Assembly (NCBI GenBank): GCA_017303715.1
Contig: JAFLBZ010000043.1
Coordinates: forward strand, 1 to 35,999
Reading direction: 5' to 3'
DNA from: Rhodothermia bacterium
GTDB taxonomy: Bacteria > Bacteroidota > Rhodothermia > Rhodothermales > UBA2364
Length of the DNA: 35,999 bases
Numbering within the stretch: position 1 is the stretch's first letter; every line of letters starts with the position of its first letter. A program made the position numbers and the translations under genes. A model generated the notes under the pieces. The model did not search any database and was not told the DNA's origin. It was given only the letters and a program-made list of their open reading frames with translations. Shown here piece after piece: positions 25,094 through 31,231 of the stretch.

Positions 25094-26149
25094 ATGCAAG
25101 CCCAAACCACAGCCTTTGCTCCTCTGAAGTTAGAAGAAGCCCAATATTTGTTTCCAGAAATACAGGTTCCTCCACATTGGGAGGCTTTATCGGGCGGACA
25201 ACTCAACTTCGTTTGGCGCTGGGGTGTATTTCCAAACTCGGTAATTGTTAAACAAAGTCCGCCGTTTATTGCCCATATCCCGCAAATCACATTAGATCCG
25301 AGTCGCCACCACTTCGAGTATAACGCATTATCATATTTACACACAAACACACCGACTTTTCTACAGACTTTTACAACAAAAATCCCAAAACTTTTAGGCC
25401 AAGATCCCCAACGTCATGTTTTGATTATAGAAGATTTTGGTGCATGTGACGCATTGGATAAAGCCATAACAAACAATGATTTTAGTATAGCAAAAGCCAA
25501 GGATTTAGGGCGTTTTATCCAAAACCTCCATCTACAAACCCAAGGTGATGAAGCCCTGGCACGCGACCATGATCATAAAAATGTACAGGCGACAAGACTT
25601 GAAGTACAATACCAACGTATCGGCAAACAAGCCATTGCACTCGCGCTTCCTTTTGCTGCAGAAATTCAACAGGCAGCCTTAGAGGTCGGACACTGCTTTT
25701 TAGAAAAAGGCAAATGCCTCATCATGGGTGATTTGTGGCCTGCTTCTATTTTGGATACAAGGCACGGCTTTGCCTTGATTGATTGGGAACTTTCCCATTA
25801 CGGCCAACCAGCGCAAGACATCGGACACCTTGCCGCTCATTGCTGGATGCTCGCACATCGAACAGAAAACCCTCAATCCTATGTAAGCATCAAACAGTTT
25901 TGGCATCATTTTGTAGAGCAATACCTTCATCAAAACACCTACTTCGGCGATGAGCAAGCCATTTTGGCCAGCCAACACATGGGGGCCGAAATATTAGCAC
26001 GTACCATTGGGGCGTTTCAGGCGGGCTATTTATACGATGGCCTTCCGGCCTCGCACCCCGCTATGACTTCAGCCATTTCGGTGGCCACAGACCATTTATT
26101 GAATCCAATTCCATTTTTTTTACGGATGGACATTATGGGTTCTAAATAG
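25094..26149 (+). CDS. APH-fold kinase, 5-methylthioribose-kinase-like
   Basis: A 351-residue small-molecule kinase of the aminoglycoside-phosphotransferase fold. The N-lobe has LSGGQLNFVWRW and VIVKQSPPFIAHI (Lys53), the hinge HVLIIEDFG, the catalytic loop LIMGDLWPASI (residues 209-219) and the metal-binding ALIDWELSHYGQPAQDIGHLAAH (Asp230). KQ-x-PP-F/Y and GDLxxxSI are closer to MtnK, which phosphorylates 5-methylthioribose, than to antibiotic kinases with HGDLxxxN. It follows the phosphorylase-like gene with a 44-bp gap, so the pair probably serves one salvage pathway. The usual His of the HGD motif is Met here. An acyl or choline-type substrate cannot be excluded. Confidence 0.7.
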   Translation: MQAQTTAFAPLKLEEAQYLFPEIQVPPHWEALSGGQLNFVWRWGVFPNSVIVKQSPPFIAHIPQITLDPSRHHFEYNALSYLHTNTPTFLQTFTTKIPKLLGQDPQRHVLIIEDFGACDALDKAITNNDFSIAKAKDLGRFIQNLHLQTQGDEALARDHDHKNVQATRLEVQYQRIGKQAIALALPFAAEIQQAALEVGHCFLEKGKCLIMGDLWPASILDTRHGFALIDWELSHYGQPAQDIGHLAAHCWMLAHRTENPQSYVSIKQFWHHFVEQYLHQNTYFGDEQAILASQHMGAEILARTIGAFQAGYLYDGLPASHPAMTSAISVATDHLLNPIPFFLRMDIMGSK

Positions 26150-28920: not shown

Positions 28921-29056
28921 TTAATCCGCTTTGTCAGCATTGTTTCTTAAACTTCATTCTTAGAATTTTCTCTTTTTTATACCCATATAACTGTATCATG
29001 ATGTTGACAATTTCGCGACTTACAAAGAACAACATTCATCGTTCAAATAAGATAAT

Positions 29057-29088
29057 TTTGAAAACAGAAGATGCGGTACTATATTTTG
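29057..29088 (+). promoter_or_regulatory. probable Bacteroidota-type promoter of the SBP-LysM gene
   Basis: TTTG at 29057-29060 and TATATTTTG at 29080-29088 are 19 bp apart, close to the TTTG / TAnnTTTG consensus (one extra base in the second box), 26 bp before the start codon. Confidence 0.5.
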
Positions 29089-29114
29089 ACATCCGCAAAT
29101 AAACCCGAAACATC

Positions 29115-30128
29115 ATGAACAGCACAAACTATACGGGCAAGTGGCCTTTGTTCTTCTTGCTCATCTTGGTTTCCATTGCAGCCTTCTGGTACTTTCGTGG
29201 TCCAAAAGACGATCCTTCCGAAAAAAATACCGACCCCTCAACGACTTCATCGGGTGTAACCCTTGACCAAATCCGACAAAGAGGCGTTCTAAAGGTAGGA
29301 ATGGAGCCAGAGTCACCACCTATGTATTTTGAAGAAGATGGTCGGAAACAAGGGTTTGACATGGAAGTCATTGAAAGCCTCGCAGGGCGTATGGGCGTGG
29401 ATAAAGTGGAGGTTGTGGAAGCCTTATATGACTATCTACCGGATTTGGCTAAAAGTGGGAAAGTAGATGTTTTTCTAAGTGGCTATATTCCCGATGACAG
29501 TATCGAAGGGGTGGATTGGTCGGATGGCTACTTAGAGTTTGGTTTTTGCCTTATCACCAAAAAAGGGAGCGGTATTCAAAATATCCGTCAGTTAAAAGGG
29601 AAAAGAATTGGGATTTACGACGATCCAGCAGCCGAAGTTTGGGTTAAAGAGAATATTGCTGGCATTGCTGGACTCTAAAAATATCAGGGCGTTGGTTGGA
29701 TGCGTAATTTGGACAATGGGAGTGTGGATGCCGTGATTTATGACTACCCCTTTGCAGCCAAGGAAGTCTTGGAATTTCCCGATTTACGGATTGTAGAACT
29801 CAACCTAAACATCACACAATATGCCATTGGGATGGCAAAAGGTAGTACCGAATTAAAGAACACCCTTAACAAACTATTGCCCTCCTTTCTCACTTCTGCT
29901 TCGTATGAACGAATTGTGAAGGCTTATTTGGCAAGTGAAGCGGTTGAAGTGGAAGACCTGCCTGCCAGTGCCAAGACCTACTTGGTTAAAAGCGGTGACA
30001 CCTTACGCCAAATTGCACAAAAAGAATTGGGAGACGCCCAAAAATGGAAGGTAATTTGGGAATTAAACAAAAAACGCTTGCCCAATCCAAACCTGATCGG
30101 AACCGGACTTTCGCTTCAAATGCCGTAG
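29115..30128 (+). pseudogene. solute-binding (SBP_bac_3)-LysM fusion gene interrupted by one in-frame TAA
   Basis: The frame encodes an N-terminal membrane anchor (about residues 9-26, WPLFFLLILVSIAAFWYF), a Ser/Thr-rich linker, a family-3 solute-binding domain (LDQIRQRGVLKVGMEPESPPMYF, GFDMEVIESLAGRMG, DVFLSGYIPDD) and, after a TAA at 29676-29678, the rest of the same domain in the same frame (VDAVIYDYPFAAKEV, YAIGMAKGSTELK) plus a C-terminal LysM domain (TYLVKSGDTLRQIAQKELGD). No shift is needed to join the halves: GIAGL-stop-KYQGVGWM. So this is one gene with a nonsense codon, or two separate products, or a sequence error. Without readthrough the first half lacks the second lobe closure and LysM. 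No permease or ATPase is adjacent; a peptidoglycan-sensing or MltF-like non-catalytic role is possible. Confidence 0.8.
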
Positions 30129-31231
30129 GTAAATTGGGATTTCTTACAGGTTTTCATTATATAAGAGGGGTCGCGGCCTTGTGGGTGGTTTTTTTTCACC
30201 TTAAACTCTACTTGTTCCCAGAACATAATGAAATCTGGCTTAAACCCATTCAGCGCGGTTATCTTTTGGTGGATCTTTTTTTTGTGCTAAGTGGTTTTTT
30301 AATGGCCTATTTATATGGTTCATTCTTTGAGAATACCTTAAATAAAAAAGCTATTGGCACATTTTTAAAAGCCAGAATCGCCCGAATTTATCCGCTGCAT
30401 TTTTTTACTTTTTTGCTCTTATTTTCTTGGTATTGCTTCAATGTTTTTATACTTGGCAAACCAAGAGAATATGGACGCATTTACGAAGAAAGTGCCGTTT
30501 TATCTCAGTTGTTCTTGGTTCAGGCTTGGGGAATCCATTCAGGAAATACATGGAATATTCCGGCGTGGTCAATCAGTACAGAATGGGCGGCCTACTTGGT
30601 TTTTCCTTTTTGGTGGCGGTTCTGGTCAAAAATGGGCGTGCGTGGAGCATTTTTCTTCCTCCCTATGGCGCTTTTGGGGTATTTCATTTTGGAAATATTC
30701 CATACTAAACAAAATTTGGATATTACCTTTGATTGGGCTTTGCTTCGGTGCTTTTTGGGTTTTGGATGCGGTATGGCACTTTTTGTAATAACACCAACAA
30801 TAGTTACTTTTTTTGAAAAACAAAGCCTTCTGAAAGCACTAAATAGTTTGACTTTACTTGTGGTAACCTGTCTGGTAATGGTATTTTCATCCAATGACAC
30901 AAGTGTTGTTGCACTCTGGCCTATCTGGGTGTTTTATTCATTTTGGAAAAGTGACTTGTATCCAGCGGGCTTGCAAAAAACCTTACATTTTTTAGGCAAT
31001 ATTTCTTTCTCGCTCTATTTGATTCATTTACCATTGCTGTATTTGGTTCCTCAAGCCCTAAATATGGGCGACCCAATCAATTTGCCAGAATATACACGGC
31101 TAAGTATTTCCTTTGTTTTTTTGGTGACAACTTTGGCGCTTTCACAGCTCACCTATCACAAGATTGAGCAGCCTATGCGGTCATGGTTGCGAAAAAAATT
31201 AGGCTTATCGGCGGCACCTTCTTTTACATAA
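30044..31231 (+). CDS. membrane acyltransferase 3 (OafA-type)
   Basis: A 395-residue multi-pass O-acyltransferase. It opens its domain with GFHYIRGVAALWVVFFHL (family RGxAAxxVxxxH motif with the catalytic His), then LLVDLFFVLSGFLMAYLY, FLKARIARIYPLHFF (R-x-x-R-x-x-P), NIPAWSISTEWAAYLVFPF and, at the end, NISFSLYLIHLPLLY. Such enzymes acetylate or acylate surface sugars or lipids. The ATG at 30044 makes the gene overlap the upstream LysM frame by 85 bp; an in-frame TTG at 30134 would begin directly before the first conserved motif. I keep the ATG but the start is uncertain. The downstream amine oxidase begins 62 bp later. Confidence 0.85.
   Translation: MEGNLGIKQKTLAQSKPDRNRTFASNAVGKLGFLTGFHYIRGVAALWVVFFHLKLYLFPEHNEIWLKPIQRGYLLVDLFFVLSGFLMAYLYGSFFENTLNKKAIGTFLKARIARIYPLHFFTFLLLFSWYCFNVFILGKPREYGRIYEESAVLSQLFLVQAWGIHSGNTWNIPAWSISTEWAAYLVFPFWWRFWSKMGVRGAFFFLPMALLGYFILEIFHTKQNLDITFDWALLRCFLGFGCGMALFVITPTIVTFFEKQSLLKALNSLTLLVVTCLVMVFSSNDTSVVALWPIWVFYSFWKSDLYPAGLQKTLHFLGNISFSLYLIHLPLLYLVPQALNMGDPINLPEYTRLSISFVFLVTTLALSQLTYHKIEQPMRSWLRKKLGLSAAPSFT

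Follow-up and report, generated by a model that had tools for sequence, protein, structure and literature searches.

Bacterial genes with a single internal stop codon can still yield a second or a full-length product, according to the sections of PMC11327459 consulted here, which counts against equating such a stop with loss of the gene. The closest described cases are the interrupted diguanylate cyclase genes of Shigella flexneri. As presented in those sections, they share with the locus described here one stop in an otherwise readable sequence, a methionine codon shortly after the stop and intact orthologues, but some of them were shown to yield a second or full-length product, whereas the present gene is known from its sequence alone (PMC11327459).

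The domain affected is a family-3 solute-binding domain (PF00497, SBP_bac_3). A profile of the intact homologues matches the ancestral PF00497 protein AncQR (4zv1) at E 1.1e-32 and the binding domain of MltF (4oyv) at E 2.1e-13. Unlike in AncQR and MltF, the domain here lies between an N-terminal hydrophobic helix and a LysM domain, and no match to a permease or transglycosylase domain was found in the interrupted gene or in the homologues profiled. The same architecture is found, uninterrupted, in a protein of 383 amino acids from Thiothrix caldifontis, with 45% identity to the first part of the interrupted protein, and in a protein from another Bacteroidota family (genome G454), 43% identical to that part. 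Thiothrix belongs to another phylum than the genome studied.

The gene lies in a window of 35,999 nucleotides, the whole stretch of DNA analysed, from a Rhodothermia bacterium in UBA2364 (genome G000). On the forward strand, translation of the frame at 29115-30128 (338 codons) gives 187 residues, a TAA at 29676-29678, a further 149 residues in the same frame and a normal terminal stop, TAG, at 30126-30128. Two open reading frames are listed accordingly, at 29115-29678 (187 amino acids) and 29700-30128 (142 amino acids). Translation confirms the original prediction of a single in-frame TAA in an otherwise open frame. That the downstream half keeps the frame and continues the domain also holds, in that both halves align without a shift to the two halves of the intact sister proteins; the identity to the protein of the sister genome G002 is 84% over 336 residues.

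The 5' part (29115-29675, 187 amino acids) encodes the N-terminal hydrophobic helix and the first portion of the solute-binding domain, and matches PF00497 with 46.5 bits (E 4e-12), above the curated cut-off of 26.4; the intact G002 orthologue reaches 60.4 bits. The 3' part (29679-30125, 149 amino acids) encodes the remaining solute-binding domain, with partial matches to binding-protein models that are below their cut-offs, and the C-terminal LysM domain (PF01476), which at 20.4 bits (E 5.2e-4) is just under the cut-off of 20.9. The LysM domain is above that cut-off in G002 (22.3 bits) and in the Thiothrix homologue (34.1 bits). The stop is positioned within the solute-binding domain. Structure prediction for the intact sister protein gave a poor model (mean pLDDT 62.5, pTM 0.52) that was used solely to place the stop, which at residue 187 would fall between a helix (residues 170-179) and a strand (192-196) where the model confidence is below 50. 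The hydrophobic helix is predicted at residues 10-28 in the same low-confidence model, and a Foldseek search with it gave, among the 50 matches listed, mainly family-3 binding proteins at an rmsd of about 9-13 Å.

Three genomes of the family were compared, all in one genus (G000, G001 and G002), and the gene is present in all three. The orthologues in G001 and G002 are intact, with 336 amino acids and no internal stop, and are found in the same place after the prenyltransferase gene (miaA); G000 alone has an internal stop, the one TAA. Both sisters have TCG (Ser) at this site. The two more distant homologues, in Thiothrix caldifontis and G454, carry Val and Arg, which makes the position a variable one across the four aligned homologues (Ser, Ser, Val, Arg). 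A sense codon in relatives, the outcome that the original prediction had said would refute it, is thus seen at species level only, where private means private among three species of the genus, and it does not tell a sequencing error apart from a mutation private to this genome.

Outside the genus the gene is rare. With the window's genome counted it was found in 3 of 244 genomes of the class at E 1e-30 and in 4 of 394 genomes of the phylum sample, the fourth being G454. When the first part alone was used as query, 4 of 60 relatives including the own genome matched, one of them at only 25% identity, and a scan of genome contigs gave two loci, in UBA2364 (L006) and in Thiothrix caldifontis (L007). 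The distribution of the solute-binding LysM gene is patchy, with one genus in the class searched and one other genus in the phylum sample in addition to Thiothrix (29115-30128 in the window, 2740-3891 in L007 and 449-1570 in the G454 locus L165), and this patchiness suggests that it may have been spread by horizontal transfer. A second copy or intact paralogue was not found elsewhere in the window's genome, where the sole other match is a LysM stretch; an intact paralogue taking over the function was rejected on this ground.

The interruption is probably a recent nonsense mutation, private to G000 among the three genomes compared, and the gene an incipient pseudogene. Most likely the mutation truncates a membrane-anchored family-3 solute-binding protein with a C-terminal LysM domain. 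A pseudogene of the nonsense type is marked by an in-frame stop deep within a gene whose orthologues in relatives are intact, and this is what was found. The stop would have arisen at a site that is variable between homologues, within the portion of the gene that was evolving fastest in this lineage even before. Ribosomes would be expected to stop at the TAA, and since the resulting 187 amino acids end before the binding domain is complete and include no LysM domain, the product would probably be non-functional. In that case the gene would be a young pseudogene with a downstream half that has not yet decayed. What speaks against a recent nonsense mutation is that TCG to TAA takes two changes relative to the sisters, so that an intermediate codon must be assumed.

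The sequence around the stop has itself changed considerably. The most diverged stretch of the gene (29655-29678) ends in the stop, and its last seven codons (29658-29678, corresponding to sister codons 180-186 counted from zero) differ from G002 at 14 of 21 nucleotides, the maximum in the gene; the N-terminal variable region is nearly as diverged, with 13 differences in 21 nucleotides. The cluster at the stop is significant (p = 0.00035 in 20,000 codon permutations over codons 49-335, counted from zero). Both the permutation test and the codon models below omit the codons before 49, the N-terminal variable region among them; the models also skip the stop codon, and one codon of the window (an extra residue near position 41) was dropped from the alignment to hold the register. 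G001 and G002 are identical over the cluster except for the third base of codon 180. The window has an imperfect tandem of 9 nucleotides, ATTGCTGGC ATTGCTGGA, at 29655-29672 that is absent from the sisters, and the length at the stop site is the same as in the sisters with no insertion or deletion. A copied segment was rejected as source of the cluster: the 28-mer spanning the stop has no second match in the genome at up to 3 mismatches, and a search for exact matches of at least 9 nucleotides within 1.5 kb, or at least 13 anywhere in the window, gave one nearby 10-mer only. The simplest reading is that the cluster represents a loop that tolerates change and evolves fast in this lineage, and that the stop came late there.

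The junction with the next gene has also been altered. The gene is preceded by a miaA-type tRNA prenyltransferase gene (PF01715) and followed by an acyltransferase-3 gene (PF01757); further upstream, 25094-26149 encodes an APH-family phosphotransferase (PF01636). The acyltransferase ATG, from which its frame is open, shares bases with the terminal TGA in both sisters (CCATGA). In the window (30120-30140) the overlap is lost (CCGTAG) and GTA replaces the sister ATG. The acyltransferase frame is open from 30044 in the window, and its start is likely to be TTG at 30134 or ATG at 30044. The description of the gene as otherwise perfect is therefore right for the open frame but not for the cluster of changes at the stop or the lost overlap, and the claimed lack of any other damage overlooks the former.

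Purifying selection has left its imprint on both sides of the stop, and the downstream half shows no sign of relaxed selection. The amino acid identity to G002 is 124/137 before the stop (codons 49-185), 82/91 in the rest of the binding domain and 46/58 in the LysM part. A codon model of the three sequences gives an omega on the window branch of 0.022 before the stop and 0.028 after it, absolute values that were not used as such, the branch length being at the bound of the optimiser with synonymous sites saturated. Constraining the ratio of window to background omega to one value on both sides of the stop lowers lnL by 0.1. When a neutral period was added for the downstream half, 0.05-0.1 substitutions per codon changed lnL by -0.04 to +0.4 compared with none, 0.2 per codon by -0.5 to -1.4 and 0.3 per codon by -3.3 to -4.5, the ranges covering two versions, with and without the divergence cluster. 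Constraint is similar on the two sides of the stop, which is compatible with a young event, and decay of the downstream half appears to be absent or short. Because the sequence is no less constrained downstream than upstream, any loss, if real, would have come late in the long branch and be recent relative to the divergence of the species. With saturation of synonymous sites on the window branch, this gives a loose upper limit and not a date. The codon test does not tell whether selection has already stopped, because a short neutral period fits about equally well, and efficient readthrough would leave an identical continued constraint.

The main rival to a recent nonsense mutation is an error in base calling, consensus or assembly, the true genome having a sense codon and an intact gene. 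This is unlikely but has to be weighed, because the gene has no further sign of decay and one erroneous base in a private sense codon would suffice. A screen for interrupted genes bears on it in both directions. It compared 1,624,610 bases of G000 (of 4,353,183, with the window included) with 723,887 bases of G002, using non-overlapping reading frames with at least 55% identity and 80% query cover, thresholds that let badly broken genes escape. An earlier version, in which 21 of 166 and 19 of 167 frames appeared interrupted, many of them overlapping or antisense, was replaced by this one. Among 164 frames of G002, ten had some stop in the match, six of them only in the first 15% or the last 5%. 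The four with an interior stop were the gene described here, an over-extended start, an antisense frame and a spurious frame in 23S rRNA, which leaves this gene as the sole confirmed mid-gene stop in the sample. Three frames gave matches in several pieces, two of which look like tandem paralogues while the third is the rRNA frame. In the reverse direction, 8 of 165 frames of G000 had some stop in G002, two of them interior. True pseudogenes thus look rare in the sample, in favour of an error, but so few interruptions also argue against an error-rich assembly (completeness 100, contamination 0.01). In addition, two of the three codon positions differ from both sisters, and the codon is part of a diverged stretch that has kept its length and frame, which is not easily attributed to an error.

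Functional readthrough, in which the TAA is decoded often enough by a near-cognate tRNA for the full-length protein to be maintained, is improbable. It would account for a downstream half constrained like the upstream half, and the variability of the site would allow it. There is also a precedent in nonsense-mutated bacterial genes that gave a full-length product, the cause of which was unclear to the authors in the sections consulted (PMC11327459). However, none of the four aligned homologues has a stop at the site; a sense codon is found in all of them. All 42 tRNA matches in the genome carry sense anticodons according to ARAGORN (150 of 227 first-look candidates were scored), and no stop-reading anticodon was found among them. 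No Rfam match was found at E 1 in 29000-30300, and no stimulatory RNA structure was seen in the 121 nucleotides at 29660-29780, which fold less stably than 193 of 200 shuffled versions (z 1.55). Of 164 reading frames of G000 that have their orthologue within the portion of G002 sampled, most end in TAA (107, against 32 in TAG and 25 in TGA), which speaks against readthrough and agrees with the original prediction that TAA is a normal stop elsewhere. That prediction had left the choice between a recent event and function. A recent private event is favoured by the sense codon in the four homologues and by the constraint downstream, while function has gained no positive support from tRNAs, conservation of the stop or RNA signals. 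Nothing found in the sequence favours a new decoding mechanism. There is also a slight chance that the TAA is leaky and selected, giving mostly a short anchored product and some full-length protein; this would tune attachment to the wall and would need neither a suppressor tRNA nor an RNA element.

The stop could alternatively have split the gene in two, with reinitiation at the ATG at 29700-29702 giving a distinct second product that acts together with the first. This ATG is found seven codons past the stop where both sisters carry TTG (Leu), and the frame of 142 amino acids is open to the normal end. A precedent is given by dgcM and dgcQ in Shigella, each of which gave two proteins that match its stop and a methionine about three codons later, as far as the sections of PMC11327459 consulted describe them. 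However, a protein started at 29700 would have neither the hydrophobic helix nor the first lobe and would be expected to be cytoplasmic, apart from the first product. The gap of 21 nucleotides between stop and ATG is also about where published coupling fails. The part of PMC10666635 consulted reports near-complete loss of coupling at about 20 nucleotides, with points in E. coli at +2, +14 (a 40-80% drop) and +38 nucleotides (almost none) and points at +22/23 nucleotides from Haloferax; no Bacteroidota are among those points. Bases resembling a ribosome-binding site are, by eye, poorer in the window (CAGGGC) than before the TTG in G002 (CAAGGA). Reinitiation, listed as a possibility in the original prediction, would probably not restore the protein, given the missing helix and first lobe and the 21-nucleotide gap, and a functional split of the gene is highly doubtful. 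An alternative genetic code was rejected on account of TAA being the commonest stop and the lack of a stop-reading tRNA, and a frameshift or hop was rejected because the frame is the same on both sides with no change in length compared to the sisters.

If the interruption is an ordinary recent nonsense mutation it is of little significance in itself, one more gene seen soon after the mutation that broke it, in a gene found in few genomes. If strains or proteomics showed the stop to be retained with the downstream half still under selection, the gene would be a clean natural case of TAA readthrough in Bacteroidota.
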